Of a stretch of DNA of 64,000 nucleotides, positions 28,858 to 45,466 are shown piece after piece (position 1 is the first letter of the stretch; each line of letters opens with the position of its first letter). The stretch comes from Flavobacteriales bacterium (lineage in GTDB: Bacteria; Bacteroidota; Bacteroidia; Flavobacteriales; Flavobacteriaceae): assembly GCA_027067965.1 (NCBI GenBank), contig JAMOUV010000027.1:32806-96805 (forward strand). Reading direction: 5' to 3'. The notes under the pieces were generated by a model. That model worked only from the letters and a program-made list of their open reading frames with translations. It was not told the origin of the DNA and ran no database searches. Made by a program: the position numbers and the translations under genes.

Positions 28858-29054
28858 AGAAATAAAAAAGATTTTGCAAAAAGATTGTTTTCAAACTCTC
28901 ACAGCGTTAGTGACCTATGGGCCCTCGCTCGGGCGCCCAAGGGTAATCGGGGCCTTCTGCAAGGCCTCGTGGCAACATCGCTGGGGTCGCAGTGAGGTTG
29001 TTCACAGAATCTCACAGAGTCAGTGACCCGTGGACCCTCGCTCGGGCGCCCAAG

Positions 29055-29513
29055 AATACGAGAAGGAGTGGAATGTTCCTTCTGAACTCTCTGCGTCGCA
29101 GTGAGGTTGTTCACAGAATCTCACAGAGTCAGTGACCCGTGGACCCTCGCTTGGGCGCCCAAGAAAGAAAATGCGACGCACAGCGCAAGCGATTTTTGAA
29201 CCGTTGTCGCAGTGAGGTTGTCCACAGGAGTCTGTGACCCCTCGCTCGGGCGCCCAAGAAAAAATTGAAAAAAATGAAACACACGCGACATACCGCCTGG
29301 TCGCAGTGAGGTTGTTCACAGAATCTCACAGAGTCAGTGACCCGTGGACCCTCGCTCGGGCGCCCAAGCAGTACGCGTACATGATGGACTTCGGGTCCTA
29401 CCGAGACATGTCGCAGTGAGGTTGTCCTGTAAGGACCCTGTGGGCCCTCGCTCGGGCGCCCAAGATCGTCTACCCTCACCATGATGAGGACGATGAGACT
29501 CTTTCTTCTAAGA
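29055..29513. repeat. Five-spacer block, copy 1 of an internal array duplication
   Basis: Spacers starting at 29055, 29164, 29259, 29369 and 29465 recur in the same order at 29957, 30066, 30161, 30271 and 30367. The intervening repeats match type for type (34, 18, 34, 20 nt inserts), including a private C-to-T change (CTCGCTTGGGC) in the repeats at 29095 and 29997. This is segmental duplication, not repeated acquisition. Confidence 0.95.
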
Positions 29514-29956
29514 GTCGCAGTGAGGTTGTCCTGTAAGGACCCTGTGGGCCCTCGCTCGGGCGCCCAAGGTGGTGAATTTCCCGAGCGAATCGGGGAGCGG
29601 AGTGAACCTGTCGCAGTGAGGTTGTCCTGTAAGGACCCTGTGGGCCCTCGCTCGGGCGCCCAAGTGCAAAGTTAAACAAACCATTTTAGTCCTTTTGTAG
29701 CAAGTGTCGCAGTGAGGTTGTCCACTGGAGTCTGTGACCCCTCGCTCGGGCGCCCAAGGTTCATTCGTATCTCCAAAACTGGGGACGGGGTGTACCTTCT
29801 TATGTCGCAGTGAGGTTGTCCACTGGAGTCTGTGACCCCTCGCTCGGGCGCCCAAGACTATATACTATGTTTAAAAATTCTAAAGTTAAAGTAAGAACCT
29901 TGTCGCAGTGAGGTTGTCCTGTAAGGACCCTGTGGACCCTCGCTCGGGCGCCCAAG

Positions 29957-30415
29957 AATACGAGAAGGAGTGGAATGTTCCTTCTGAACTCTCTGCGTCG
30001 CAGTGAGGTTGTTCACAGAATCTCACAGAGTCAGTGACCCGTGGACCCTCGCTTGGGCGCCCAAGAAAGAAAATGCGACGCACAGCGCAAGCGATTTTTG
30101 AACCGTTGTCGCAGTGAGGTTGTCCACAGGAGTCTGTGACCCCTCGCTCGGGCGCCCAAGAAAAAATTGAAAAAAATGAAACACACGCGACATACCGCCT
30201 GGTCGCAGTGAGGTTGTTCACAGAATCTCACAGAGTCAGTGACCCGTGGACCCTCGCTCGGGCGCCCAAGCAGTACGCGTACATGATGGACTTCGGGTCC
30301 TACCGAGACATGTCGCAGTGAGGTTGTCCTGTAAGGACCCTGTGGGCCCTCGCTCGGGCGCCCAAGATCGTCTACCCTCACCATGATGAGGACGATGAGA
30401 CTCTTTCTTCTAAGA
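29957..30415. repeat. Five-spacer block, copy 2 of an internal array duplication
   Basis: Second copy of the block at 29055-29513, closer to the leader. It is preceded by a chimeric repeat (29902-29956: left side like the 20-nt insert type, right side GTGGACCC like the 34-nt type) and followed by another mixed repeat (30416-30468). Confidence 0.95.
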
Positions 30416-30830
30416 GTCGCAGTGAGGTTGTCCACAGGACCCTGTGGGCCCTCGCTCGGGCGCCCAAGCAAAATGGACAAATAACTGCGGAAAAAATTAT
30501 CCGCGATATGTGTCGCAGTGAGGTTGTTCACAGAATCTCACAGAGTCAGTGACCCGTGGACCCTCGCTCGGGCGCCCAAGCTGTTAAAATAGTAATAGAA
30601 GGAGAATTTTTAAAAGTACCTCTTGTCGCAGTGAGGTTGTCCTGTAAGGACCCTGTGGGCCCTCGCTCGGGCGCCCAAGTAAAGTTTCCGAACAAAAGCC
30701 TCGGGGGCCGCCTTTTGGGTCGCAGTGAGGTTGCCCTCGCTCGGGCGCCCAAGCAAAATAACGACGGTACGCTGACGGGAAACCTGCGGGTAGATGTCGC
30801 AGTGAGGTTGCCCTCGCTCGGGCGCCCAAG

Positions 30831-30929
30831 CTGTTAAAATAGTAATAGAAGGAGAATTTTTAAAAGTACCTCTTGTCGCAGTGAGGTTGTCCTGTAAGGA
30901 CCCTGTGGGCCCTCGCTCGGGCGCCCAAG
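30831..30929. repeat. Duplicated spacer-repeat unit out of order
   Basis: The 99 bases 30831-30929 (one 44-nt spacer plus one 55-nt long repeat) are identical to 30581-30679. It is the only long repeat on the leader side of the long-to-short change, so it was most likely copied in by recombination. Confidence 0.92.
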
Positions 30930-31708
30930 CGTACCCCGTTGGTATTCCGCCCTTTTACGCAGAAAAAAAGTCGCAGTGAGGTTGCCCTCGCTCGGGCGCC
31001 CAAGGTTAAAAGAAAATAACCTTCTCTCATTTGAAACAAGAAAAGACTGTCGCAGTGAGGTTGCCCTCGCTCGGGCGCCCAAGCCGAATGTGAACGTAAA
31101 TTCGAAAAAAAAATATCCGCGCTGTCGCAGTGAGGTTGCCCTCGCTCGGGCGCCCAAGAATATTCTTAGCCGGTGACCTGTTCACCGATAAGAATGTGTC
31201 GCAGTGAGGTTGCCCTCGCTCGGGCGCCCAAGAAGAAGGAGTAGTAATTCTCCCCTATGAAACTCGCACAAGCGAGAAAGTCGCAGTGAGGTTGCCCTCG
31301 CTCGGGCGCCCAAGAATTGTTTTGAAACTAACCTCAAAAATCATATAACTATGTTTGTCGCAGTGAGGTTGCCCTCGCTCGGGCGCCCAAGTTCGAACGG
31401 GACATGGAGCGGGGCTCCGACACTCCAAATTGGTCCCGCGTCGCAGTGAGGTTGCCCTCGCTCGGGCGCCCAAGAGTATCGTCAGTATGAATACCACCCT
31501 GAACTTGACCCTAATGTCGCAGTGAGGTTGCCCTCGCTCGGGCGCCCAAGATGGACCAACAAAAAAAAGACAGCACCTCCTTCTCAAAATATGAGGTCGC
31601 AGTGAGGTTGCCCTCGCTCGGGCGCCCAAGGTACGACCCGGATGGGCCGTCTTCATTGACGGACTCGTCGGGTGTCGCAGTGAGGTTGCCCTCGCTCGGG
31701 CGCCCAAG

Positions 31709-32260
31709 AGCTTGGGGCCATTGGTTATACAAATTTATTGTAAAATTTTTTAACATACAAATCAATTGATACTCAAAGGCTTGCTTTGAATTGGGATTTT
31801 TATTCGAAAATGCATGTTTTTCTTCGTTTTATTTTATGCCATAATTCATATTTGAGTTTTTTAATCGGATGAAAATCAATTTATTATGTTTTATTTTTTT
31901 TCGAAAATTCAAATTTATTTTTGCCTCATTTTTTCATTTTCGAAAAAGCATTATTATTTCTTATAATCATGACTTGATAATCAGTAAATTATAATTTTAA
32001 AAAATTAAAATTTCGCAAAAGATGTCCTTATGTGGACCTGAAATTTGTATTTTCGAAATTTTAACAAAGGCATGAGGCCGCATTATTTTAACATATTGAC
32101 AGGTATTTCATTGGTTGTCAATTGTTTATCATTGATTAAAATCTTCGAAAATGATTTTGTTTGTAATTGATTGATTTTTAGCAACTTAGACGTGAAAATT
32201 GGTTGAAATTATCTCTGTTTTGATTGATTTTTATTGTTTTGCCCGAAGAAAGGGTGGGGG
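31709..32260 (-). promoter_or_regulatory. CRISPR leader, about 550 bases, AT-rich
   Basis: Between the first repeat and cas2 lies a strongly AT-rich stretch without ORFs, as expected of a leader. The palindromic core TTCGAAA occurs five times (31803, 31900, 31939, 32052, 32144), two copies being mirror partners (TTTTTCGAAAAT near 31897 and ATTTTCGAAAAA near 31937). A 14-nt direct repeat TTGATTGATTTTTA occurs at 32167-32180 and 32220-32233. A small hairpin GTCC-TTATGT-GGAC lies near 32024-32037. Confidence 0.8.
31730..31761 (-). promoter_or_regulatory. Predicted Bacteroidota-type promoter of the array
   Basis: On the - strand TTTG (31758-31761) is followed after 20 bases by TAAATTTG (31730-31737). 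This matches the -33 TTTG / -7 TAnnTTTG consensus of the Bacteroidota primary sigma factor with correct spacing. Transcription would begin about 10-15 bases before the first repeat. Confidence 0.6.
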
Positions 32261-32545
32261 TCATTCGTCGAATATGCTGAATGAGTTGTCTCCGGATTTA
32301 TTTTTACCAAAAACCAAACTCCGGGCATAACATTCTTTTGTGAGCGGATATATTTTTACGGTATCGGTACGAGGATTGATCAAATGATAGAGGTCGTATA
32401 ATAGGGTTTCATATTCATAAAAAGTGAGTGTGCATTCAAATACGCTTAAGTTGATTCGCTTGCCGTGGTGTTTCAAGAGTTCGGCTACTTTATTGCGGCG
32501 TTTGTTGCTCCGAATATCGTATGCAATCACATAGAGTTTTTTCAT
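32261..32545 (-). CDS. cas2: CRISPR adaptation protein Cas2
   Basis: 94 residues with the Cas2 N-terminus MKKLYVIAYDIRSNKRRNKVAELL (catalytic-site Asp in YDI) and NLSVFECTLTFYEYETLLYDL. It bridges Cas1 dimers in spacer integration. It sits between the leader and the RT-Cas1 gene, 79 bases after the latter, same strand. Confidence 0.93.
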   Translation of the reverse strand: MKKLYVIAYDIRSNKRRNKVAELLKHHGKRINLSVFECTLTFYEYETLLYDLYHLINPRTDTVKIYPLTKECYARSLVFGKNKSGDNSFSIFDE

Positions 32546-32624: not shown

Positions 32625-34859
32625 TTACCAATTAATCATTTTATATGCTTTGAACCTTTTTTCTTGTCCCATGATATACATCCGCAAGAGTTGGGTTTGG
32701 CGGTGTATATTGTCGATCATTGGAAATTTTTTGTTGAGATATTTTTCATACCGGGCCAAATTGGCATCCACGGCCCGGATTAAGCGTTGCTTGGTGGGCT
32801 TATCGATTTTTCCTTTCGGTGCGGCTATAGGAAATTTACGGTTGATTACGGCCAATACCGCGCGGTCCACCACGGGTTGGCGAAAGGGTTCAATGAGATC
32901 GAAAACCAAGGATGCCTTGCCGCGGGCATGTGCATGCAAAAAACCATATTCGGGATGCAATCCTTGAGCTAGCACACTATTCCACACATGGCGGTAGAGA
33001 ATGGCATAACCGTAATTGAGCATGCTGTTTACCGGATCCACGGCACGGCGTGTGATTCGACCGGTGAAAGTGCCGGTTTCTTCATCGATCATCATGCGAA
33101 ACCATTGCCAATATATAGCCGAAGCGATGCCTTCGTAGCCCATGAGTTTTTCCCGGAACTCACCGGAGAATGGAACGGATTTAGCTTCGCTAAGGAGGTC
33201 TTGAAGTTGGGTTAATGCACCCGGCATAAAGAGGGCAATGTCTTCTTCGGTCTTGGCGGCATATTTTCCGAAATATTTTATGAGCCGTATTTGATTGGTG
33301 ATTTTAGCACCGAGTATTTCCCGGGCTATGACGAGTGCTTTTTCGGATTGAGCGGTTTTTTCTTGTTTGGTCCAGGTTTTGACATAAATATGGTGAAAAT
33401 CAAAAATTTTGGCATAAGGTTCGCCATTGGACTTGACCAAATCTACGGAGATGCCGTTTTGCACACAAAAATTGATGAATTCGGTGGATAAATTGGCCGG
33501 ACGGGCGGAAATGGTGATATAGCGTAGATTTTTGGTGGGATATTTGGTTATTGTACGGTCTTTGTGACGAACTGTGATTTTGTTTTTGGAAATACCAATG
33601 GATTTTCCATATCCGCCGATATGCAAATGCATGTTTTCCATGAATTTTCGTTGATATTCTCTTCGCCGGAGCCGGACGGCTTGCTCGGCGGTGGTAATTT
33701 GTTTTTGATTGCGGAGTTCATAAACGGTATTGATAATACTCTTTCGATGCATATTAAGATGGCGGTTATAAAGATCGGTAACGAAACGCAAGTGCTTCAA
33801 AGCTTTTTTGAGTTGTTTTTTGCTAACCCTACCGGGCAAAAGGTTTAATTTTTCCGTCCAAAGTTTAATGAGAAGTTCATCCAAGGGAAAGAGGATGTTT
33901 TGAGGAATAAGATTTCCGTAATAATTGCTTATTCCTTCGACTTGATCGTGGTATTTTTGGGGGAAGGAAGGATGCCGGAAAGCCCGTTTGATTTTTTGTT
34001 GAAGTTCCTTGATTTTTCCCGAAGAAAGGGTAATGAATTTATCGGTGATCCAAACGCCCAAAAAACGGAATCCTTCAGAAGCTTCACGAATAAAATAACC
34101 GGGATTGAGTTTGAGTTTGAGTTGAGTGGAGATGTATTGCATGGTCTGATTCAAAACCTCTTCGGCATTTTGGCGGTTTTTGCATAATATGACAAAATCA
34201 TCGGCATATCTGACATAAGGAATGTTTTTGGCGTGCATGCGTTGGTCCAAAGGAGTGAGGTAGAGGTTGGCCAAGAGCGGGGACAACACGGCACCTTGAG
34301 GTACGCCGGCGGTTCGTTCTTTCCATTGGCGGTCTTTATCAATATATCCCATACGAATAAACATTCGAATGAGTTCGAGCAAGTAATTATCTTGAACTAA
34401 GGGTTTTAACTGTTTGAAAAGGCGGGTATGATTGATGGTGTCGAAATAATTGTCGATATCGCATTTAGCAATAATTTTATTTTTTTCGGCCATGATATAG
34501 TGCCGCACTTTGTTCACGGCTTTTCTGGGACCTAATCTGAGACGATAGGCATAACTTGAGGAGAAAAAATGTTTTTCGAAGCGTTGTTCCAAGAGATTTT
34601 TAATGGCTGTTTGTACAATTTTGTCATGGACAGTGGCGAGTCCCAATATGCGTTTTTCGTCTTTATCCTTGGGAATTTTAATTTGTAAATAGGCCTGAGG
34701 AAGATAGGTTTTGTTCTTGAGTTTGAAGGCAATTTGCATAAGGTATTTTTCTTCTTTTTGTTTGAAATCATTGATGGAGATGCGGTCAATTCCGCCGGAG
34801 GAACCTTTGGCACGGACTTCGTTCCATGCGTCTTTGAGAAGAGAGTAGGTGAGTTGCAT
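32625..34859 (-). CDS. cas1: Reverse transcriptase-Cas1 fusion
   Basis: Residues 1-350 form a group II intron-like reverse transcriptase: fingers (GGIDRISINDF), PRKAVNKVRHYI, CDIDNYFDTINH with a metal-binding Asp, VPQGAVLSPLLANLYL and the catalytic YADD at 218-221; a thumb-like helical part follows. From about residue 410 there is a Cas1 domain: ITISARPANLSTEFINFC, then the metal ligands in GYEGIASAIYW (Glu), GFLHAHARGKASLVFDLIEPFR (His and Asp/Glu). 744 residues. There is no N-terminal Cas6 domain, unlike some Cas6-RT-Cas1 proteins; cas6 is separate, upstream. In studied type III systems such fusions allow spacers to be acquired from RNA. No intron RNA structure is seen around it. Confidence 0.95.
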   Translation of the reverse strand: MQLTYSLLKDAWNEVRAKGSSGGIDRISINDFKQKEEKYLMQIAFKLKNKTYLPQAYLQIKIPKDKDEKRILGLATVHDKIVQTAIKNLLEQRFEKHFFSSSYAYRLRLGPRKAVNKVRHYIMAEKNKIIAKCDIDNYFDTINHTRLFKQLKPLVQDNYLLELIRMFIRMGYIDKDRQWKERTAGVPQGAVLSPLLANLYLTPLDQRMHAKNIPYVRYADDFVILCKNRQNAEEVLNQTMQYISTQLKLKLNPGYFIREASEGFRFLGVWITDKFITLSSGKIKELQQKIKRAFRHPSFPQKYHDQVEGISNYYGNLIPQNILFPLDELLIKLWTEKLNLLPGRVSKKQLKKALKHLRFVTDLYNRHLNMHRKSIINTVYELRNQKQITTAEQAVRLRRREYQRKFMENMHLHIGGYGKSIGISKNKITVRHKDRTITKYPTKNLRYITISARPANLSTEFINFCVQNGISVDLVKSNGEPYAKIFDFHHIYVKTWTKQEKTAQSEKALVIAREILGAKITNQIRLIKYFGKYAAKTEEDIALFMPGALTQLQDLLSEAKSVPFSGEFREKLMGYEGIASAIYWQWFRMMIDEETGTFTGRITRRAVDPVNSMLNYGYAILYRHVWNSVLAQGLHPEYGFLHAHARGKASLVFDLIEPFRQPVVDRAVLAVINRKFPIAAPKGKIDKPTKQRLIRAVDANLARYEKYLNKKFPMIDNIHRQTQLLRMYIMGQEKRFKAYKMINW

Positions 34860-35131: not shown

Positions 35132-36034
35132 TTAATCTAAATCAACCACTTTTAATTTTCCGAATCCTACGGAAGCATTACTACCCACATGAATGGCTTC
35201 GCCGAGCTTGAGGATTTTGTAGAAATCGGGTGCATGACCTTTGAATTCCACCCAACCCGACCAGCCGCGCATGGGATATTTTTCATGGCGTTTTGGGGAG
35301 CGGTAAATTACTTCCTTTTTGATCTTATAGTTGGTCACTTGAAGCCGGTCCATTTGGGGTGATTTGAGCAATTCGGTACGGATGAATCCCGGAAGAAGAT
35401 GAATGTCTTCAGGTGGCGGTTCATGGCCGAAAATCCGGTCGATATTTTCAAACATGGTGGAAGCGCGCCGAAGCATCACGGCCCGGTGGATGAGAAAATG
35501 GAACAGCTCTTCCTTTGAAGAGGGCGGAACGGGTTTTCGAACGCGTATAATGGAAACGGGTACGGGAAATTCCACCCGAAACCGGTCGGAGGATTGGGAA
35601 ACGGATTCAAAATGGCGCAAGCGAATGAACGGGGTATTGCGGTGACCGGCGGCCTCCACCCCTTGAAGACTTCCGTAAAACTGGCGGTGATATAACGGAC
35701 GCTGAAAAGCATGCATAAAAAGGACGGGAATGGACTCGGGCGGAAGAAAAGGTGTGGTCAAATGAGTGAAAAAGAAATGAAAAGTTTCGCCCCGCGGCAA
35801 TTCTCTAATGCGGCGTGGTATGTAGAACCAATAAGGTGCGGGCGGGTTGGACCCGAACAAAGAAAAATAAGGATGTTGGCGGGAAAGTTGGGGCTTGAAA
35901 AAATATTGAAAGGCGGGCGGATGATAATGCTTGAGGGTTTCGCCGAATACTCCCCGGATGAAGCTCCCCAAAAATCCGGGCAATTGGCTATCGGCTAGGG
36001 CGCGTATGGTTATCTTGTAGCGGTGGAGGAGCAT
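35132..36034 (-). CDS. cas6: CRISPR endoribonuclease Cas6
   Basis: Cleaves the array transcript within repeats. A RAMP-type protein of 300 residues with the C-terminal glycine-rich loop VGSNASVGFGKLKVVD and N-terminal LPGFLGSFIRGVFGETL, typical of the Cas6 family used with Cmr complexes. ATG at 36034. Its substrate here is unusual because the repeats occur in short and long forms; it would have to process all of them for older spacers to work. Confidence 0.85.
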   Translation of the reverse strand: MLLHRYKITIRALADSQLPGFLGSFIRGVFGETLKHYHPPAFQYFFKPQLSRQHPYFSLFGSNPPAPYWFYIPRRIRELPRGETFHFFFTHLTTPFLPPESIPVLFMHAFQRPLYHRQFYGSLQGVEAAGHRNTPFIRLRHFESVSQSSDRFRVEFPVPVSIIRVRKPVPPSSKEELFHFLIHRAVMLRRASTMFENIDRIFGHEPPPEDIHLLPGFIRTELLKSPQMDRLQVTNYKIKKEVIYRSPKRHEKYPMRGWSGWVEFKGHAPDFYKILKLGEAIHVGSNASVGFGKLKVVDLD

Positions 36035-36116: not shown

Positions 36117-36182
36117 AAAATTCCCCGGGGTAAAACTAATGATTTAAGAATTTATATTCCTCATTATACCCCGGGGGATTTT
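36117..36182 (-). terminator. Long hairpin at the end of the cmr operon
   Basis: AAAATTCCCCGGGGTA (36117-36132) pairs with TACCCCGGGGGATTTT (36167-36182) with one mismatch, and TAATGA (36137-36142) pairs with TCATTA (36161-36166) inside. The hairpin starts in the cmr6 stop codon. On the - strand the right-hand arm ends in TTTT. Probably a terminator or an mRNA-stabilising structure separating the cmr genes from cas6. Confidence 0.65.
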
Positions 36183-37320
36183 AATGGATTATTTCTATTG
36201 AGTTTGAAAAATTAACGCTTTTGGATTTGGCATAATCGCTGGTAATTTCAATTTTTACTTTTTGTCCTACTTTCAGTTCCGCGTTCAATTTTGTTTTTTT
36301 CTTTTTGAATTTAAGTTTTTTGCCGAAATCAAACCGGAAATAATAGTATTTTTTATCTTCTCCAATTACTTCGGCTTGCAATTTAGCACCCATTTTGATT
36401 ATTTTATCTTCTTCGGATGGAGGAGGTGGAGGAGGAGGGGTATAAACAGGTTTAGACTGTTGAGGTTGTGAGGAGGACTGGCCGGATGATTCTGAATGTT
36501 CTGATTCGACTTGAGTTCTCTCAAACTGCCCGTAACCTACATTGGTTTTGGCGCCGATGCCGAGGTCTTCGAGAATGGCTTTGAACAATTTCATTTTGTC
36601 GCGGGCCGCCAACTTATTTCCGTTTTCATCCACGTAATCCCGCAAAATAAACTCAAAGCGGAAGGTTACGCCGGGCATTACTTTGAGGAATTGAATGGGA
36701 TTGGGGTTTTTTAAGGGATGCTCGTGGGGAGTTATGTAATCATTACCCAAAAACTTATTTTTCACTTTTACGGGAAAGGCGTCCAGAAATACGTCTCTTT
36801 GGTGCATGGGAAGATGATCCCAAACTTTTTTACCGTTTTTTTCTATATATCCTTTCCCTTCGAAAATATGTTCTTTTAACTTTTTAATATTCAATCCGGT
36901 CTTAATTTTTGGCTTGTCCTCGAGAAGGTATTTTACATAACCGCCGTCGTCCTTATCAAATGCACTTCGTAACACGCCTTTTACGGACGAGCCGGGTATT
37001 ACCGGAAGGCCGGTGGTATGGTCGAAGTAGAAGCCGAGTTTTAATTCATCGGATACCAAAGGTTTGCCGTTTTCATCTTTTTTATCCGCACCTATTTCAT
37101 GAATATAACCGCTGCCTACCAACAAGCCCGGATAGATTGTGGTTAAAGAAAATCCATGGTTTCCGCCGAAAGGCGGTTGTGCGGGCATATTCCATCGAAG
37201 GTTTTGAAGCCGGTCAAGAAAAGTTTTTCCCGAAAACACCGGATACCATTCATTTCTTATCCTTTTAAATTTTAATGATTTAAAATAATCTTTATAATAG
37301 GCGAATCCCAAATTTTTCAT
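36181..37320 (-). CDS. cmr6: Type III-B RAMP protein Cmr6 with C-terminal extension
   Basis: Cas7-family backbone subunit. SLTTIYPGLLVGSGYIHEIG and LPVIPGSSVKGVLRSAF are Cmr6 signatures, and GAKTNVGYGQFE is the glycine-rich loop that usually ends the protein. Here a Ser/Gln linker, a run of seven Pro (PPPPPPP, near residue 300) and about 75 more residues follow (LQAEVIGEDKKYYYFRFDFG ... VGQKVKIEI), an apparently beta-rich domain resembling a small OB-like fold. The start overlaps the cmr5 stop by one base. 379 residues. Confidence 0.88.
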   Translation of the reverse strand: MKNLGFAYYKDYFKSLKFKRIRNEWYPVFSGKTFLDRLQNLRWNMPAQPPFGGNHGFSLTTIYPGLLVGSGYIHEIGADKKDENGKPLVSDELKLGFYFDHTTGLPVIPGSSVKGVLRSAFDKDDGGYVKYLLEDKPKIKTGLNIKKLKEHIFEGKGYIEKNGKKVWDHLPMHQRDVFLDAFPVKVKNKFLGNDYITPHEHPLKNPNPIQFLKVMPGVTFRFEFILRDYVDENGNKLAARDKMKLFKAILEDLGIGAKTNVGYGQFERTQVESEHSESSGQSSSQPQQSKPVYTPPPPPPPSEEDKIIKMGAKLQAEVIGEDKKYYYFRFDFGKKLKFKKKKTKLNAELKVGQKVKIEITSDYAKSKSVNFSNSIEIIH

Positions 37321-37742
37321 TATTCATCAATTTTAAAGGTTCGTAAAGCTAATTTCATAGCCACTAAAATATCTTCGATTTCCTGTTGATACCGCAAAAG
37401 TTTTTCTTTATCCAATATGTCCAAGGAAGCTTCCTCTTCATTTTCACGGATTAGAGTTTGACGGATGACATAGTCTATTAATGTTGGTCCGTCCGTGTCA
37501 TCCCGGTGACCGGGTTTCAGAACATCATAAATTGCTTTCAATAAATGACTGCTTTTGGCTTTTTTTCCGCTGTCATTTTGATAAAAGGCCAATGTTGCCA
37601 ATAATCCCGCCTGAATTATACTTGCACCCATGGATGCAATATATCCCTTAAATTCTTTGGGAATTTCACCGTTTTCATTTTTGAGATGATTGTTGATAGC
37701 TGTTCTGCACGGGGGAATTAACGTATTAATTTTTGCTTTCAT
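37320..37742 (-). CDS. cmr5: Type III-B small subunit Cmr5
   Basis: Helical small subunit (Cas11 class) lining the target-RNA groove. Motifs KGYIASMGASIIQAGLLATLAFYQ and SSHLLKAIYDVLK are typical of Cmr5. I chose the ATG at 37742 (MKAKINTLIPPCRTA), which leaves 13 bases after the cmr4 stop; an in-frame TTG at 37769 would overlap cmr4. 140 residues. Confidence 0.88.
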   Translation of the reverse strand: MKAKINTLIPPCRTAINNHLKNENGEIPKEFKGYIASMGASIIQAGLLATLAFYQNDSGKKAKSSHLLKAIYDVLKPGHRDDTDGPTLIDYVIRQTLIRENEEEASLDILDKEKLLRYQQEIEDILVAMKLALRTFKIDE

Positions 37743-37755
37743 AGCCGGATTTTTT

Positions 37756-38535
37756 TTAAATTTTTTCAATATTTACATATCCGTATCCGATGGTGGCATT
37801 GGCACCTATTTGAACCGTATGGGATGTCATTTCTTTAATGAAATCTGCCATGTAAGGGTCATTATCAGGAATATTTACGAAAAAGATGAATTTGCTTTTT
37901 CGCGGAACAATTTCTTCATACCATAAATTTACGCTTTGGCCGTTTTCCAATTTATTACGGGCAATAACGGGAAGTTCTTTGCCGCGTTGTTTGAATTTAT
38001 GATTTTTATAAACGGCTACCGGTTCATTCCCGAATTTCTCCCATATATCCCATTGGGGGGCACGTTGGGCTTGGTAGTCTTCCAGAATGGTATTGCCATG
38101 TTGGGTAACAATATCGGCATCGAAATCATAATTTCCCTTAATAAACTTTTCATCCAATCCTAATGAACGTGCCTTTTCGTTAATATTATCTATCAAACAC
38201 GGGGCCGTGGCCAAATAATAGGGGGCATTATTGCTTCGAACGGGTAAAGCCAGTAAATCCGCCTGGAAAAATTTGTATTTACCAATTCCGGGATCTTTTG
38301 CACCCCGGGTCAAATCAGGGCCAAAGACATGGTCGATAAAATCCGGACCTTTATTAAGGTAATTGTCAAAGAACTCCCGCAATGCACCTTTAAGGCTGGA
38401 CGCATGAATAACGGGCATATCCGTCACGGGGTCCCGTTGAACCAAATTATCCACTACGCCGTAATTGGCGCCGCCGGCTCCTACATGCATGTTGGTAAGG
38501 GCCGTAATCATGAAGGCTTTAGGTGTGTATTTCAT
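37756..38535 (-). CDS. cmr4: Type III-B RAMP protein Cmr4
   Basis: Repeated Cas7 backbone subunit that cuts target RNA. ALTNMHVGAGGANYGVVDN, VQRDPVTDMPVIHASSLKGALRE and the C-terminal glycine-rich loop IGANATIGYGYV are Cmr4 signatures. An Asp-rich stretch (DNIN, FDADIV) is near the expected active loop, but the catalytic Asp cannot be assigned by eye. 259 residues. Confidence 0.92.
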   Translation of the reverse strand: MKYTPKAFMITALTNMHVGAGGANYGVVDNLVQRDPVTDMPVIHASSLKGALREFFDNYLNKGPDFIDHVFGPDLTRGAKDPGIGKYKFFQADLLALPVRSNNAPYYLATAPCLIDNINEKARSLGLDEKFIKGNYDFDADIVTQHGNTILEDYQAQRAPQWDIWEKFGNEPVAVYKNHKFKQRGKELPVIARNKLENGQSVNLWYEEIVPRKSKFIFFVNIPDNDPYMADFIKEMTSHTVQIGANATIGYGYVNIEKI

Positions 38536-38553: not shown

Positions 38554-39645
38554 TTAATTGGATTGTGCATATATGATTTTGTAATGATTATATCCCACTT
38601 TTCGAAGGTTATCATAATTAAACAAAGAAGGAATATCCTTGTTTTTATCAGAAAAATAAAAGACGGAACCTTTTTTGTAAACCTCAAATTTTTGAGATTT
38701 GTCCGGTTTCCGCGCCGGATTTTTTATATTAAGGTCCGTAACTAAAAACCTAAAATCGCCGGTCCGGGTAATGGCAAAATCAAAATCCGGAAAAATATCT
38801 TTTTCCACACAGGTATCGCTGAGCAATACCACTTTGTGGAAATTTTTGGAACTTTCATAAGGGGGTAACAAATCTTCAAATCCCTTATCGAATTTTTCAA
38901 CGTCCATCCTAAACATTTGCTGTTCGCCACCAAAAACGACATTATGATTACTTTTTAGGTCAAAATCCAGTTCGGCTATAAACGAAAAGCCGTAGCCTTT
39001 TTTCATTTTCCAAAAGGTTTGAACGTAAAAAGCTTTTTCATCTGTTTTTCCGTTATAATCTTTCCGTATGCCAACTTGTTTGTGTTCGATAAAAACATCG
39101 TCATAACTGTATTTTATTCCGCTTCGGTTGATTAAAAGATCGGGCATATCGTATTTGGGATTATAATTTTCCAGCTTAATGAGGGGTTTTCCGTTTAATT
39201 GCCGTCCTTTTTCCGTCTCCTCTTTTACAGGATTTACCGTTAGCCAACCTTGCTCTTTGTTACATTCATCATCGAATTTTTCTTTCCAAACATATTCCCT
39301 GTTAGCCGGAAAATAATATTCCTTTGTATCATCCGAATTACGGGTAATAAATACAGGGGACAGGGATTTGATTTTTCCGAAATCGAATTTGCCGTTTATG
39401 GTAAAACTCTTTTCTCCTATTAACTTTTTTGCTAATTGAGGATCCTGGATTTTATTGTCAGCAAAAATTTGCGGATCATTGCTTTGGACCAGCAATTGAT
39501 GTCTTAAAAGTCCCAGCAAAGCTGTTTGTTGGGGGAAGTACCGGGAAACCACCAAATAATGCGCATTGGTATCCCCGAAAGTGCGTTCGCCGCCGAAGAA
39601 AAATTTTTCGTGCGGGGTAAGCGTGATAAGATATTTTGTTGCCAT
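38554..39645 (-). CDS. cmr3: Type III-B RAMP protein Cmr3
   Basis: Cas5-like subunit binding the crRNA tag next to Cas10. KYLITLTPHEKFFFGGERTF and SRYFPQQTALLGLLRHQLL match the Cmr3 N-terminus. I use the ATG at 39645 (MATKYLITL), 10 bases after the cas10 stop, instead of the upstream in-frame start that overlaps cas10. 363 residues. The name rests on order and motif; overall similarity to characterised Cmr3 is probably low. Confidence 0.82.
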   Translation of the reverse strand: MATKYLITLTPHEKFFFGGERTFGDTNAHYLVVSRYFPQQTALLGLLRHQLLVQSNDPQIFADNKIQDPQLAKKLIGEKSFTINGKFDFGKIKSLSPVFITRNSDDTKEYYFPANREYVWKEKFDDECNKEQGWLTVNPVKEETEKGRQLNGKPLIKLENYNPKYDMPDLLINRSGIKYSYDDVFIEHKQVGIRKDYNGKTDEKAFYVQTFWKMKKGYGFSFIAELDFDLKSNHNVVFGGEQQMFRMDVEKFDKGFEDLLPPYESSKNFHKVVLLSDTCVEKDIFPDFDFAITRTGDFRFLVTDLNIKNPARKPDKSQKFEVYKKGSVFYFSDKNKDIPSLFNYDNLRKVGYNHYKIIYAQSN

Positions 39646-39655
39646 AATGAGCGGT

Positions 39656-41350
39656 TTAATATTCTTGTTTGTTATTAATGAATTCAATAAAGCGTAATGC
39701 CGCATATAGTTTTTTCAAATTGTCATTATGACGTTTTTCTTTTTCAGCTTCCGGAAGCGAATGAACCGGATTCTCCGTATATACGGCTTTGAATAAGTCC
39801 CTTACTTTTTCCAGGAAAGGAATTAATCTTTTCGTGCCGTCAGGTCCTTTTCTTACGTGTACACTTTCATTGAAATTATTGGTAAAGAAATTATCAAAGG
39901 CATTATTTCTTTCGCCGGTGTCTTGAATTTCGCCGATAGTTTTGATGACACCGTTCAGCGGTTCCAATTTATGCGCCACGGAATGAACGAACCGGCTGTC
40001 TTTCACTTTTTGCTGAAGCAATTCATTATAGAGTTTATAGGAATCGTGATGCTTATGGAAGGTGGTTCCGAAATATTGGCCGCTATGTTTCAGCACCGCA
40101 TAAGACACGGCATTTTTCTTGCAAGTTTTTTTGGCGGTATAAAACAACCGGTTGATGGCTTGTTCCAGCGCCTCGTTTAGCGGAAATTTATAATAGCTGA
40201 CGGAAACACCGTAGGACATGGATGGTTTTTTATCGCCAAGCGAATTGATAATATTTGCGAATTCCGAATGATCATTAAATTTATCAATAAGAAATATTTG
40301 ATTAAATAATTCATCCAATTGATTGATTAAGGTAAAAATGGTTTTCCTAATGCCGTCGGTGATTTCATTCTCTTCGTTTCCTTCTTCAATAATGCCGGTA
40401 TGTGCCACGGGCGCAAAGAAGAGCAAATCATCCCCGCCGGCATAAACGGTTTTACCTTTGTATTGATCAATTAATTCAACAGCATTTTTGCTGAATTCCA
40501 ATAACTTTTTTGAAAATATACTTATTAAGTCCGGATTCGATTTGTAAATTTCATTGATGAGTTTTCCCATATTATCGCCATCGGCCTGTACCACGGTAAT
40601 GTATTTTTGATAATTGCGAAAGCGATCGCCGGCACCTTCTTTTATTTTTTCGTAAAATTTTTCTTGGTCGTCTTCCGCATCTCGCTTAATGAGACGGGAT
40701 GCCTCTTTATAAAAATCTTCACCTTCAAATTCCGCCGCGGCTATTTCGGCCGTGCTTGGAAATCGTTTTCCCGTAAAAGCTTTTCGGTGAAAATAATTGT
40801 ATTCGGAATTTCCGTCTTTGTCTTGGTATTTTTCAAAGAATTTTATTAACCATTGATGTTTTTCGTCATCTGTTGTTGTGCGTATATCATCACATTCATT
40901 GGATACAATTTTTTCTTCCAGTTCCAGCGCGTTCAAATATTCGCTCACCTGCTCGATAACATTCCCCTTTTCTATATTGACTTCAATAGGAATAATACGC
41001 AAATATTCTTCAAGAAAATTTTCAATCCGCTTTGCCGGTACATTGATGTCGTTACTTATAATTATGCTAAGCTCTTTAATAACATTCGAAATAATTTGTT
41101 TTAAATTGGTAATTTCACCGGGATATATTATCCTGTCGGGATAAAATCCTGCTTTTTCGAATTGGTTCAAATCATTTTGATTGAAGTAGGGAATAATAAT
41201 CTCATTCGGATTTAATCCGGCTCTCTTTATGATTTCCTTCATAATCCAGGAAAACATATAACTGGCCGACCAAATGGCTTTGGTGCTTCTGGCACTTTGA
41301 ATGGTCTTATAAATGGGACCTATGGTTAGGGCGGTATAGGTTTTTTCCAT
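39656..41350 (-). CDS. cmr2: Cas10/Cmr2 without HD domain
   Basis: Large type III subunit. The Cmr2 N-terminal palm motif is seen at 9-40 (TIGPIYKTIQSARSTKAIW and SYMFSWIM), the first palm metal site is ADGDNMG (256-262), and the nucleotidyl-cyclase motif is GGDD (305-308). There is no HD motif and no room for an HD domain: only 564 residues, against 800-1000 in nuclease-bearing Cmr2. Target binding should therefore trigger signal synthesis but not DNA cutting. In Bacteroides fragilis an HD-less Cas10 makes SAM-AMP; the adjacent CorA protein suggests the same here. Confidence 0.92.
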   Translation of the reverse strand: MEKTYTALTIGPIYKTIQSARSTKAIWSASYMFSWIMKEIIKRAGLNPNEIIIPYFNQNDLNQFEKAGFYPDRIIYPGEITNLKQIISNVIKELSIIISNDINVPAKRIENFLEEYLRIIPIEVNIEKGNVIEQVSEYLNALELEEKIVSNECDDIRTTTDDEKHQWLIKFFEKYQDKDGNSEYNYFHRKAFTGKRFPSTAEIAAAEFEGEDFYKEASRLIKRDAEDDQEKFYEKIKEGAGDRFRNYQKYITVVQADGDNMGKLINEIYKSNPDLISIFSKKLLEFSKNAVELIDQYKGKTVYAGGDDLLFFAPVAHTGIIEEGNEENEITDGIRKTIFTLINQLDELFNQIFLIDKFNDHSEFANIINSLGDKKPSMSYGVSVSYYKFPLNEALEQAINRLFYTAKKTCKKNAVSYAVLKHSGQYFGTTFHKHHDSYKLYNELLQQKVKDSRFVHSVAHKLEPLNGVIKTIGEIQDTGERNNAFDNFFTNNFNESVHVRKGPDGTKRLIPFLEKVRDLFKAVYTENPVHSLPEAEKEKRHNDNLKKLYAALRFIEFINNKQEY

Positions 41351-41352
41351 GG

Positions 41353-42735
41353 TTATATGATTTGATAGTTGCTGAGTCTTTCGTTACAATCACAATTTTG
41401 AATAGCGAATTCCAAAAAGTCGCCGATATTAAAACTTTCCGGTGTTAAGAGATTTTCAAGTTCTCTACGGAAACGTCGATCATTGACAATCCGGCCATTC
41501 CTTTTCAATCGAAGGGTGAATTGAAATTCTTTTGCCAGTATATCTTCGTTTATATCATTGGCCAACAAATAAACTTTGTTGTTAACAACTTTAAAAAAGA
41601 GAGGCGATTGAAATCTGTCAATTTCATCATGTTTTACTTCAACGATATAGGAAAGTTTTGGTATTCTACCCTTATTGGGATATGGATCAAGAATTACTTG
41701 AAATTCAAAATTCTCGGCAAGACCTAATAAGGCGCGGATATATTTGTAAATAAAAGGATGCGGATCATCCCACCTTTGATTACCTTTCGCATCATAAACA
41801 GCCGAATTTTTATTTCGTGTTTTTAAATCGACTTTAAAATCATTATTATTGATTTCAATAATAAATGGATTGTTATGAATTTGTTGTTTGATTTTTCTTT
41901 TTTCCCAACGAACAGGTGGATTCTGTTGAACGAAGTAGAGGAAAAGTAATGATTTTTTATAACCATTAAAATTAATCCCGGCCTTTAATATTTGATAATC
42001 ATGTTGTATTGACGAAAAAATCCTTTCAAAATCATTAAAACGATTTGTGTTCCTATATGTAAATTGAAATATGTTTCTAAAATCCCTTTCATTGAAAGAA
42101 ACGGGTTGTTGATTTATAGAAGTAACCGTAAAACTCCCGAATCCTTTGTTTTGACGAGTGCCGAAATTGGTGGACAGAAAAAAATCCGGCAAGGTTTCTT
42201 CAATGGTTTTTAAAAGAGTTTTTCCATTTATTTCATTGGTATTGAAAGATTTTATTTCACCATTAATATTTTCATTGGTATAAACCGCAAATCTTACTTC
42301 TTTTAATTTCTTTTTCTCTTGTGGATCAATAAAATTTCCGTTCCATTTAAATTTATCTTCGTTAGCGAAAAATGGAGAATTGTGAATGTAGGTAAAATCG
42401 AAAGAAAATTCTCTTTTCAAATTATTTTCTCTGTGTTGAAAGTTAGTTGTATTTAGCTTTCTGGCCAATGGAAGATAATAACTAACATTTTTCGGCGCCT
42501 CAATCCTCACCTTATAATCCAAAGCCGGATGCTCGCCGTTGCCGGTAAGCCAGCCGTTGTTTTTCGCTATTTGACGGCCTGTATCATAATTACCATTCCC
42601 GAGTTTGGTCAAGATAAACCTGTCCAACTTAGGCTTTAACTCCGTGGCGCGGAGGGTGGCGCCGTCCTGATCGTGCTGGAAGTGGATCAGGGGCGTGTGC
42701 TGTTTGAGGGTGAATTCGAGATGATATTTGCTCAT
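41353..42735 (-). CDS. cmr1: Type III-B RAMP protein Cmr1-like
   Basis: Cas7-family subunit expected at the 3' end of the crRNA. FTLKQHTPLIHFQHDQDGATLRA followed by ELKPKLDRFI resembles the first Cmr1 RAMP repeat; FFLSTNFGTRQNKGFGSFTV is a glycine-rich RAMP loop. 460 residues. First of six genes in the order cmr1-6, 2 bases before cas10. Assigned as Cmr1 from position and these motifs. Confidence 0.8.
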   Translation of the reverse strand: MSKYHLEFTLKQHTPLIHFQHDQDGATLRATELKPKLDRFILTKLGNGNYDTGRQIAKNNGWLTGNGEHPALDYKVRIEAPKNVSYYLPLARKLNTTNFQHRENNLKREFSFDFTYIHNSPFFANEDKFKWNGNFIDPQEKKKLKEVRFAVYTNENINGEIKSFNTNEINGKTLLKTIEETLPDFFLSTNFGTRQNKGFGSFTVTSINQQPVSFNERDFRNIFQFTYRNTNRFNDFERIFSSIQHDYQILKAGINFNGYKKSLLFLYFVQQNPPVRWEKRKIKQQIHNNPFIIEINNNDFKVDLKTRNKNSAVYDAKGNQRWDDPHPFIYKYIRALLGLAENFEFQVILDPYPNKGRIPKLSYIVEVKHDEIDRFQSPLFFKVVNNKVYLLANDINEDILAKEFQFTLRLKRNGRIVNDRRFRRELENLLTPESFNIGDFLEFAIQNCDCNERLSNYQII

Positions 42736-42748
42736 GATAAAAAGGTTT

Positions 42749-45466
42749 TCAATTAAAGATTAATGATAACAGATATGAGAATATACCGCTTAATAAGGCG
42801 ACTATAATAAATTCAAGCAAAACTTTTAAAAAAGGATGAATAGATATGCTTGAAAAGGGATTTTTTATATGTTTTAAAATTGGTTTTCTAAACACATAAT
42901 ACATTATTAACATACTAATAAATAGGAACGGAAACCAAAAACTAGGAACAGACTTACCTCCAATAAGGTATCGGGGAATTTCATTCGGAGATTTCCAAAT
43001 GTTCATTCCCAGAATGCCAGCTATTAACATAGCCGGTAAGAATAGGGTAGCTAAAATAGTGTGTATTCGCATTTCCTTCTTCTCCTCCTTGTCCGCAATC
43101 ATCCCGGCAAAGGCATTGAGTTCGGCGATTTCGTTATCCAAATCCTTGACCTGTTCGGGGATGCGCATGATACGTTGCATCATATCGTACATTTCGATGC
43201 CTTGTTCTTGGGGTGTGACTTCTCGGAAGTATATTTTGTTTACAAACAGAATGTAATGTTTATAAAGGTCTTCAATTTTTTGAATGGCTTTATCCATATC
43301 TTCGCCATCGCGGTGAATTAGATCCGACACATGGGTTACTTCGTCCGAAAAGCTCACGATGGTAGCCCGCTGTAAGAGGGAGAGTTCGGCCATTTTGTAA
43401 TACATGGTTTGAAGGTGCCGGATAAGGAAAGCCGGTGCCGATTTTCCTGTTAGCATCACCATACTATAACGGGACATACCGTATAGGGTCCCTTCGTCAA
43501 TCCAACGTGAATAGGTATGTTTATCCAAATACTTGGGAAGTTTAAGGCGGTCATTAAAAGTTTTCCAAGTATCAATAAAAATATAATTATGCCAAAAATC
43601 ATTTAGCGTGTAGGCATATCTACGTTTTCCGTTTATTCGCCTTATTTTTTGTAGGGTTTGAATTTGGGAATTATTACCATGCCAGCTTATGACATACATT
43701 CTGTCATCATTCAAGGCGGGGCGGAGATACACTTTATAACGGGTATCTTTTTCCAAGCATTTTTCATTTTCCTTGTCCGCTTTTAAGCATCCCGATTTTT
43801 CATGGGTGAGGAAAAATTTTTCGGGAAATAAGACCTTAATAAATTCCGGTAAGAGAAAAGGACCGTGCTTGAAATTATCAGCACAATAATATTTGGAATA
43901 ATCCTCCAAACTTCCGGGAATCCTTTCATTATTCCGGCTCAACCAAATGGCTTCCGGAAGTTCATTGTTTTTTACACACGGAAGCCATTCTCCGGGCGGG
44001 GTGTTTTCTTTTCCGGTTTTTATGCCTTCATCTTTCAGGTTTAGAAAAGGTGGATATAATCTCCTTCCGTATTTATTAATGCGCAAAATATCTTGCGAAT
44101 TCTCATGACTTTTATTGCGAAGATGAAAGGATAAAATCCCTACCCCCGTGCTATACATATTTAGTATAATGCTGTCAATTTCTAATGAATATATGTTATT
44201 TTTTAGCTGTATGTTATAAAACAATTTATTTCCCAGATTGATGTCAGCCGGTTGAAATTCATAATGACGGATGAGTTCTTCGTTTTGTAAATTGGTGGAA
44301 GTGCGTAAATTTTTATCCAAATCGTAAAGAATTTCCCTGACGAAATCAAAAAAGTAATTATACTCATTATAAGTACTTCCGTCAATTAATTTATAAGGTT
44401 TCCTTTTCCAAGGAGAAGTTTTATCCCTAATGAGCAATTTCTCAAATTCTTTGAGATTATATTTTTCTTTCAAGCGGTCGTTTTCATCTTTATTCCACAA
44501 TTGCCATCTGAAAGGGAAAAGAAACACATGATAACTGTACATTTCATCATTTTGAATCTTCTCCAAATCCGGTTTAATCTCCCTAAAAATCTCCTTCCAT
44601 TCTTTCGCTAAAATTTCCGCATCTTTCTCCTTTACATAATCTTTTGTAAATCCGAAATAACCGCTGTCATGGGCGCCCCCGAAAAAAGCCCGGCTGTAGC
44701 CGTTTTTATCTTCTTTTAGCTCATCTTTATACTTTTCAATAATTTTTGTCGGGATATAGCCGGAGTAGTGAAATTTGTTATCGTTATAAAAGATGATTTT
44801 GATTTTCTTTAATTCCCGGGCGCAATCTTTCGGCGTGTTTTTTTCGCCCTTGTCTTTCCGTGTGTTAAGGCACTCATCTAATTTTTCGAAAAAGAATGCA
44901 TCTGTGTAAGGCGTAAAACTTTCGGCATCTTCGGGCAATTTCCAAATGAGCAATCCGCTTAATTTATCCTCTTTCGGCGGGTTTTCCTTTAAAAAGCTAT
45001 GGGCTTTATCAAAATCCGCTTTCGTAAGCCCTTGCGTTTCGCGGTCCTTGCGGCGGATGTTTTCGATTTCGTCTAGGGAAAAACCTTCATCAAGAAGTCC
45101 GGGAATATAAGCTTTATCGTTTACGGCCACTTTCTTTTGCCAATCGGTTAATTCTAGGCCCAAGAGTTTCGCCACTTGTTCGATGGAAGCAGGTTTGCAC
45201 CGCTCATAATTATGGTGGTCGATGTCTATAATGCGGGGATTTTCCGGTTTTTTTGTTTTACCCAACAATTCAATACCGACAACTTGTAAATCTTCATTTT
45301 CTTCAAGGAGTTCTTCTATCCGCGGAATATAAAAATCCCAACGGGCATTATTCCAAGATAAACCCGCACTTTCCAAAGGAATATGATGTTCTTCCAAGAG
45401 TTTTTGGATTTCTTTCATCTCCAAATCTGAACCGCCGAGGAAGAAATGGAATTTTGAGGGGGTCAT
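42749..45466 (-). CDS. CorA-type channel effector fused to a DHH phosphodiesterase-like domain
   Basis: 905 residues. The N-terminus (5-15 FHFFLGGSDLEM; 78-86 IIDIDHHN; 113-122 VAVNDKAYIP; 136-147 IRRKDRETQGLT) has the pattern of DHH-family phosphodiesterases, with a possible DHHA1-like part near AFFGGAHDSGYFGF. A long middle region (about 300-640) is unassigned and probably the cytoplasmic sensor (LFPFRWQLW; YNEYNYFFDFVREILYDLD). The C-terminus is CorA-like: a long helix, TM1 ending in the GMN motif at 820-822 (IAGILGMNIW), TM2 FWFPFLFISMLIMYYVF and a third hydrophobic segment at the end. In B. fragilis, separate CorA and NrN (DHH) proteins form the SAM-AMP channel and its degradase; here both seem to be in one chain. 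13 bases before cmr1. Confidence 0.85.
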   Translation of the reverse strand: MTPSKFHFFLGGSDLEMKEIQKLLEEHHIPLESAGLSWNNARWDFYIPRIEELLEENEDLQVVGIELLGKTKKPENPRIIDIDHHNYERCKPASIEQVAKLLGLELTDWQKKVAVNDKAYIPGLLDEGFSLDEIENIRRKDRETQGLTKADFDKAHSFLKENPPKEDKLSGLLIWKLPEDAESFTPYTDAFFFEKLDECLNTRKDKGEKNTPKDCARELKKIKIIFYNDNKFHYSGYIPTKIIEKYKDELKEDKNGYSRAFFGGAHDSGYFGFTKDYVKEKDAEILAKEWKEIFREIKPDLEKIQNDEMYSYHVFLFPFRWQLWNKDENDRLKEKYNLKEFEKLLIRDKTSPWKRKPYKLIDGSTYNEYNYFFDFVREILYDLDKNLRTSTNLQNEELIRHYEFQPADINLGNKLFYNIQLKNNIYSLEIDSIILNMYSTGVGILSFHLRNKSHENSQDILRINKYGRRLYPPFLNLKDEGIKTGKENTPPGEWLPCVKNNELPEAIWLSRNNERIPGSLEDYSKYYCADNFKHGPFLLPEFIKVLFPEKFFLTHEKSGCLKADKENEKCLEKDTRYKVYLRPALNDDRMYVISWHGNNSQIQTLQKIRRINGKRRYAYTLNDFWHNYIFIDTWKTFNDRLKLPKYLDKHTYSRWIDEGTLYGMSRYSMVMLTGKSAPAFLIRHLQTMYYKMAELSLLQRATIVSFSDEVTHVSDLIHRDGEDMDKAIQKIEDLYKHYILFVNKIYFREVTPQEQGIEMYDMMQRIMRIPEQVKDLDNEIAELNAFAGMIADKEEKKEMRIHTILATLFLPAMLIAGILGMNIWKSPNEIPRYLIGGKSVPSFWFPFLFISMLIMYYVFRKPILKHIKNPFSSISIHPFLKVLLEFIIVALLSGIFSYLLSLIFN

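Follow-up and report, generated by a model that had tools for sequence, protein, structure and literature searches.

Repeats of four lengths, with inserts at one fixed point, in the CRISPR array of a type III-B RT-Cas1 locus from a Flavobacteriales bacterium

The clustered regularly interspaced short palindromic repeats (CRISPR) array described here lies in a stretch of 64,000 nucleotides (nt) of contig JAMOUV010000027.1 (assembly GCA_027067965.1, positions 32,806 to 96,805 of the forward strand) from a Flavobacteriales bacterium of the family Flavobacteriaceae. This whole stretch is referred to as the window, and coordinates are those of the window. Parsed from two constant halves, the array comprises 31 repeats (R1–R31) at 28873–31708 on the minus strand, with a degenerate terminal repeat at its left end and an AT-rich tract and the cas genes on its right; the right half, CCCTCGCT[C/T]GGGCGCCCAAG, is present in 31 copies and the left half, GTCGCAGTGAGGTTG, in 30. 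Twelve repeats (R19, R20, and R22–R31) are 35 nt long, and 18 of the 31 have both halves and are longer, at 53, 55, or 69 nt. These long repeats carry an insert of 34 nt in six cases (69-nt repeats R2, R3, R5, R12, R14, and R17), of 20 nt in seven (55-nt repeats R6, R7, R8, R11, R15, R18, and R21), and of 18 nt in five (53-nt repeats R4, R9, R10, R13, and R16). The terminal R1 is degenerate and resembles the 69-nt form, which completes the total (12 + 18 + 1).

An initial annotation of this DNA had described a CRISPR array in which one repeat family occurs in several lengths, as the parse confirms, with the extra bases at exactly one point, and the insertion point is indeed identical in 18 of 18 long repeats. 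Its statement that 11 of the 12 newest repeats are 35 nt long is borne out for the 12 cas-proximal repeats; its figure of 19 long repeats holds for the 18 with both halves, but is reached only by adding the degenerate R1. Examples of each form, all on the minus strand, are R2 (69 nt; 28986–29054, with the 34-nt insert at 29001–29034), R6 (55 nt, 20-nt insert; 29410–29464), and three 53-nt repeats with different 18-nt inserts, namely R4 (form 18a; 29206–29258), R9 (form 18b; 29706–29758), and R16 (form 18c; 30416–30468), the last with the best hairpin among the inserts. Direct repeats, spacers of similar length, adjoining cas genes, and a degenerate distal end are all present as expected of a CRISPR array; a single repeat length, which is usual but not strictly defining, is replaced by lengths of 35, 53, 55, and 69 nt. 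Spacers are all different outside duplicated blocks, and their mean length is alike in the long-repeat part (42.7 nt, n = 13) and the short-repeat part (42.8 nt, n = 11). Six copies of the 34-nt insert are present in the window, against none in 100 shuffles, the 51 pieces that the 69-nt repeat matched in the bacterium's own genome (E up to 10) all fall inside this array, and the right half is found at only one place in that genome. The array is thus a real, unusual array of a known system.

The genes to the right of the array, all on the minus strand, make up a full type III-B locus with a fused reverse transcriptase (RT)-Cas1, Cas2, Cas6, Cmr1–6, and a DHH-CorA fusion. Nearest to the array is Cas2 (32261–32545; TIGR01573, 3.5e-13; Cas2_IIIb, 5.9e-25), followed by RT-Cas1 (32625–34859), in which RVT_1 (5.8e-31) and Cas_Cas1 (4.3e-64) match within one open reading frame (ORF; Cas1_IIIb, 6.3e-151), and by Cas6 (35132–36034; PF10040, 3.7e-09; PADLOC Cas6, 4.6e-27). 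The effector genes encode Cmr6 (36181–37320; TIGR01898, 5.5e-38), Cmr5 (37320–37769; PF09701, 1.9e-09), Cmr4 (37756–38535; TIGR02580, 1.3e-40), Cmr3 (38554–39705; PF09700, 9.8e-23), Cas10/Cmr2 (39656–41350; TIGR02577, 5e-35; Cas10b, 1.4e-78), and Cmr1 (41353–42735), which is matched by PADLOC Cmr1 alone (3.9e-76), with no match in NCBIfam or Pfam. Cas10/Cmr2 thus stands together with Cmr1, 3, 4, 5, and 6, which defines type III-B, and the adaptation module is of the RT-Cas1 kind, with RT fused to Cas1, Cas2 next door, and the array adjoining.

Farthest from the array, a single ORF of 905 amino acids (42749–45466; PADLOC DHH_CorA and CorA; PF01544) joins CorA to a DHH-family phosphodiesterase, the combination that marks the CorA-1 cluster, as an ancillary effector. 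By analogy with the CorA systems treated in the available passages of PMC10600005, this fusion is a candidate effector responding to SAM-AMP (S-adenosyl methionine-AMP) that would carry its own phosphodiesterase. As those passages describe it, the CorA-1 type III-B cluster of Bacteroides fragilis and Aliarcobacter butzleri has the same cmr1–6, cas6, RT-Cas1, cas2, and CorA with DHH (NrN), and DHH/NrN and CorA are fused in the window as in A. butzleri nrn-corA; the same passages make no mention of variable repeat length, whereas the window array holds four lengths. Used whole as a query, the array matched nothing in phage records and a single plasmid record, weakly and at about chance level (E 0.8), so no protospacer emerged.

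The cas-proximal end of the array is presumably the leader end with the newest repeats, and the cas-distal end the oldest, with transcription on the minus strand; the cas-proximal end is taken as the leader because a worn terminal repeat lies at the opposite end, and on general knowledge. That terminal repeat, R1 (28873–28941, minus strand), is a degenerate 69-nt form, identified by ungapped alignment to R2 at 54 of 69 positions (9/15 in the left half, 25/34 in the insert, and 20/20 in the right half); it also matches the 69-nt repeat at 83% over positions 10–69 in the own-genome search, and the best ungapped match of the 34-nt insert elsewhere in the window is 19/34. At the other end, the ten cas-proximal and presumably newest repeats, R22–R31 (30970–31708, minus strand), are all 35 nt in the constant-half parse, and the AT-rich tract between the array and cas2 (31709–32260, minus strand) is the presumed leader. 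Repeat length falls from the cas-distal to the cas-proximal end (Spearman -0.77 over 30 repeats, and -0.85 over 25 repeats once duplicated units are collapsed; p-values are not used because neighboring repeats are not independent). Runs of the same form with different spacers are present at R2–R3, R6–R8, R9–R10, and R22–R31, a pattern that suggests exact-ended copying at all four lengths.

Judged by alignment, the inserts of the window form one related family. The 34-nt insert aligns with 18a (TCCACAGGAGTCTGTGAC) at 16 of 18 identical positions, with gaps of 9 and 7 nt, and with 18c with gaps of 17 and 1 nt, and none of 2000 shuffles was as good in either case; 1 of 2000 was as good for 18b, and 17 of 2000 for the 20-nt form. 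The relatedness that the initial annotation had proposed is therefore upheld, with the alignments better than shuffles and weakest for the 20-nt form. The 34-nt form with its right flank contains CACAGA twice and GACCC twice, the copies being 10 and 8 nt apart, and slippage between these copies would yield nearly the gaps of 18a, each one base off.

Self-complementarity of the inserts, also proposed at the outset, was assessed by comparing the fold energy of each insert alone with 2000 mononucleotide shuffles, and it stands for two of six forms. Folding stands out in 18c (TCCACAGGACCCTGTGGG; 0.3% of shuffles as low) and in 18a (1.7%), but the other four forms are not clearly above shuffles: the 34-nt insert is borderline (6.8% of shuffles and 4.7% of background windows as low), and folding is ordinary in the 20-nt forms (21% and 48% of shuffles) and in TCCACTGGAGTCTGTGAC (26%). 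Whole-repeat folding is ordinary as well (z -0.3 to -1.8 versus shuffles in seven repeats). The stem predicted for recognition by Cas6 has a pair probability of 0.65 in the 35-nt form, 0.67 in 18c, 0.95 in the 20-nt form, and 0.87 for three of four pairs in 18b; it is lost in the 34-nt form (0.01) and in 18a (0.00). The presumed 8-nt tag ACTGCGAC is retained in 30 of 30 repeats that have the left half, so that of the view that stem and tag are kept intact in most forms, the letters and the tag survive, but the predicted stem does not in these two forms. Optional functional hairpins were rejected as an explanation, as the fold statistics of inserts, whole repeats, and Cas6 stems fail to carry it; of the optional extra-hairpin modules first suggested, the several lengths and the fixed point stand, and a hairpin role is weakly supported, in two of six forms.

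The array has also been rearranged. A block of 502 base pairs (bp) at 29030–29531 is exactly duplicated at 29932–30433, with both ends inside repeats, and a 119-bp block comprising the right half of R17, a spacer, and the 55-nt R18 (30561–30679) is exactly duplicated at 30811–30929, so that one 55-nt repeat now stands amid the 35-nt forms; on its left the 119-bp block is bounded by the insertion point, and on its right by a repeat border. R11 (29902–29956, minus strand), at the left breakpoint of the 502-bp duplication, is a 55-nt repeat whose 20-nt insert ends in A, the last base of the 34-nt insert of R2, a pattern as expected from a crossover inside the insert. One tandem duplication and one deletion would explain both R11 and R16, among other possible paths. 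The duplicated spacer blocks and conserved repeat borders are like those that a review (PMC8047081), in the part available, attributes to recombination between repeats; compared with the rearrangements described there, block ends in the window fall between repeats of unlike length and leave a recognizable hybrid, R11.

A parallel is apparent in a genus-mate, G202, two other arrays of which contain extra segments in mid-repeat. In its array L186, with a 37-nt repeat, 2 of 23 copies have an extra 42–43 nt (one internal and one terminal), and in its second array, L207, this is so for 1 of 7 copies, the terminal one; in both terminal long copies the usual spacer-side end is missing. The three G202 inserts can be aligned with each other, the constant parts of the array are 17 nt on either side of the insert, and the insert has no match outside these arrays in the G202 genome (E up to 1). 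It is not related to the window inserts: 328 to 999 of 1000 shuffles score as well for the four forms tested. One spacer is present twice in L186 (5373–5406 and 5519–5552); duplications are therefore not confined to the window array. The same array adjoins Cas1, Cas2, a Csx20-like protein, and a RecD-like helicase (L186, 576–3845), an unusual adaptation cluster in which the Csx20-like match is below its curated cut-off and the RecD-like match also below cut-off. In ten other arrays of relatives (L174, L175, L176, L177, L183, L194, L195, L196, L208, and L209) no mid-repeat insert was found, L175 showing only three repeats at a contig end and the repeats of L208, like those of L186, being read directly instead of from the script consensus; odd terminal copies in L183, L194, L195, and L209 are cut or worn, not long.

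The array's constant halves and its RT-Cas1 were also sought more widely. The initial annotation had proposed a search of related genomes for the same constant halves, and this gave nothing beyond the genome itself: among 199 family genomes and among 9 genus genomes, the exact left half occurs only in the bacterium's own, leaving 198 other family genomes and 8 genus-mates without it. Both halves together were absent from the viral contigs searched, and the 15-nt left half matched at least 119 stretches of genome contigs, of which, among the 80 listed, 79 had a single match and one a double, with no array. RT-Cas1 has relatives at 81%, 68%, and, in several cases, 54–55% identity. It matched at E 1e-50 in 7 of 395 phylum genomes, at E 1e-80 in 7 of 395 class genomes, and at E 1e-100 in 1 of 397 family genomes, the genome itself being included in each count; at E 1e-3, 66 of 199 family genomes matched, over part of the protein only except in the genome itself. 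Arrays near distant RT-Cas1 matches have different repeats, of one length each. Peptide patterns of RT-Cas1 were not found in genome and viral contigs, seven contigs (L169, L182, L184, L185, L187, L189, and L193) have no array of four or more copies, and the top-ranked papers of the open-license literature, judged by title and the start of the abstract, include none on an array with internal inserts of several lengths.

The favored explanation, to which we assign a probability of roughly 0.55, is that the insertion point is a tolerated slot between two repeat ends that the RT-Cas1–Cas2 integrase would read, with the content of the slot copied in each new repeat. Read in crRNA (CRISPR RNA) sense, the repeat starts with 20 nt on the leader side, continues through the slot, and finishes with 15 nt on the spacer side, the last 8 of which, ACTGCGAC, are the presumed tag; they are so interpreted since repeats of the genus that otherwise differ finish in identical or almost identical 8 nt. 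The first attack of the integrase would fall on the leader-side end, and a motif within the spacer-side 15 nt would set the second cut at a constant distance from itself; duplication would then take in the entire repeat at any of the four lengths (35, 53, 55, and 69 nt). For types I-E, I-B, and II-A, the sections available of PMC6895254 describe a second integration site that is displaced by the length of an insert placed leader-side of a ruler motif and stays where it is when the other side of the motif is changed; if RT-Cas1–Cas2 behaves alike, a ruler motif in the spacer-side 15 nt would entail that inserts in the slot are inherited. The proposed process thus resembles ruler-guided integration in that a leader-side insert gives a longer repeat that is copied, but the II-A changes in that account were engineered and of 1–3 nt, whereas the window inserts are natural, of 18–34 nt, and in an RT-Cas1 type III system whose ruler we infer. 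Cas6 would cut within the spacer-side 15 nt, the insert would stay in the 3' handle that is trimmed, and immunity would be barely affected; in type III systems, as stated in the part available of PMC5965380, crRNAs retain their 5' tag and are trimmed at the 3' end. The insert would originally have been 34 nt, would have been shortened by deletions between short direct repeats, and would have been lost before the ten newest acquisitions, and recombination between unlike repeats would have shuffled the old part of the array. A broader proposal, held tentatively and at somewhat less than even odds, is that repeats of this lineage have a free central slot, with ends read independently of the distance between them, and that segments of 18 to about 43 nt enter, persist, shrink, and leave in two or more array types of a single genus that are unrelated to each other, so that the window array would be a fossil record of repeat-length change.

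Several observations weigh against the favored explanation. The 20-nt form is no plain deletion of the 34-nt form, and loss of the predicted Cas6 stem from the 34-nt form and 18a could impair processing. Recombination could also place like repeats side by side, and the 13 unique long repeats change form 8 times, with no more changes than this in 44.6% of shuffles (18a, 18b, and 18c being pooled in this count, and likewise the two 20-nt forms). Their order, 34-18-34-20-18-20-18-34-20, is not obtainable by simple leader-end copying, so one must also invoke much recombination, a mixture of array lineages, or the use of internal repeats as integration sites, the last of which the part available of PMC4390879 reports for locus E of Sulfolobus solfataricus; more than one history of rearrangements would fit. 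The long terminal repeats of G202 could be insertions into worn-out repeats instead of ancestral forms, arrays with a related repeat in another genus-mate, G203, carry no insert, and the RT-Cas1 relatives at 81% and 68% sit on short contigs that leave their surroundings out of view. The II-A ruler study (PMC6895254, in the part available) tested changes of 1–3 nt and saw stray sites. Extending that ruler to 18–34 nt in an RT-Cas1 system is a stretch, by analogy, and the integrase and Cas6 steps of the slot model are inferred from sequence.

Alternatively, several arrays or strain lineages, each of fixed length (69, 55, 53, or 35 nt), may have been spliced through their shared halves, with no need for shrinkage. 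In favor of such splicing, the long part is as mixed as a random order, the same 34-nt and 20-nt inserts turn up on either side of other forms, and at R11, R16, and R20 duplications can be seen to end in repeats of unlike form. It is nonetheless rather unlikely, given that the right half is at one place only in the genome, that no exact left half exists in the 8 genus-mates or the 198 other family genomes (same-species strains not being among these), and that length drops strongly from end to end. An artefact of assembly from a strain mixture is the least credible of all the readings: the genome is a draft of 33 contigs, the array contains an exact 502-bp duplication, and some unlike forms share 32–34 nt (18c and 20, 33; 18a and 18b, 32; 20 and 20', 34), enough for a small-word misjoin, but 15 of 21 form pairs share 21 nt or less, and ordinary reads would span the roughly 77 nt, spacer included, between neighboring inserts. 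A wrong join by the assembler is unlikely.

Selection may instead maintain the inserts as functional modules, in the form of additional hairpins by which cleavage by Cas6 or integration by RT-Cas1 is adjusted. That 18c and 18a fold better than 99.7% and 98.3% of shuffles, and that inserts end beside the same 7 nt before the presumed cut, would agree with such a role; it is nevertheless improbable, as four of six insert forms are not clearly above shuffles, whole-repeat energies are ordinary, and the ten cas-proximal repeats are without an insert, as is the whole array of one RT-Cas1 relative within the genus. The order of the forms, long at one end, short at the other, and shuffled in the middle, fits a tolerated shrinking segment better than a selected module. 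Marginally less probable again is repeated entry of a short palindromic mobile element into mid-repeat, with short repeats ancestral and long ones derived: two array types of a single genus do have unrelated inserts at about the same position, yet the terminal repeat of the window array is long, and neither genome has a copy outside arrays at the sensitivity used. A dispersed palindromic element was rejected: within the genome of origin, neither the 69-nt repeat (searched at E up to 10) nor the G202 insert (at E up to 1) matched anything but arrays.

Within one array, repeat length is generally taken to be constant, and its measurement by the integrase has, in the studies consulted, been worked out with small engineered changes. 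A natural array with four lengths, apparently copied exactly, offers ready-made substrates for asking how an RT-Cas1 integrase finds the far end of the repeat, and it bears also on the tolerance of Cas6 and type III complexes to mid-repeat changes and on repeat evolution. Software for array detection that presupposes a uniform repeat length may break up or shorten arrays of this kind.

RT-Cas1 at 52–54% identity is present in three of the eight genus-mates. In G202, the RT-Cas1 contig starts inside an apparent cas2, with the array side off the contig, and in G205 the RT-Cas1 gene (L184, 133–2355) contains an in-frame stop and the contig ends 132 bases beyond, so its cas2 and array may lie off the contig. 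The end ACTGCGAC or ACTACGAC is common to otherwise different repeats of the genus. RT-Cas1 of G204 (L183) is 54% identical to that of the window, and its array of 21 repeats has no inserts, the last repeat but one being cut short; its 35-nt repeat has the same ACTGCGAC end as that of the window, but beyond the last 11 nt no local similarity could be aligned. Between cas2 and the presumed leader of G204 (L183, 11460–12200), palindromic repeats (TGTCATTCCCGCGA...) that by eye are similar to repetitive extragenic palindromic (REP) elements are stacked.

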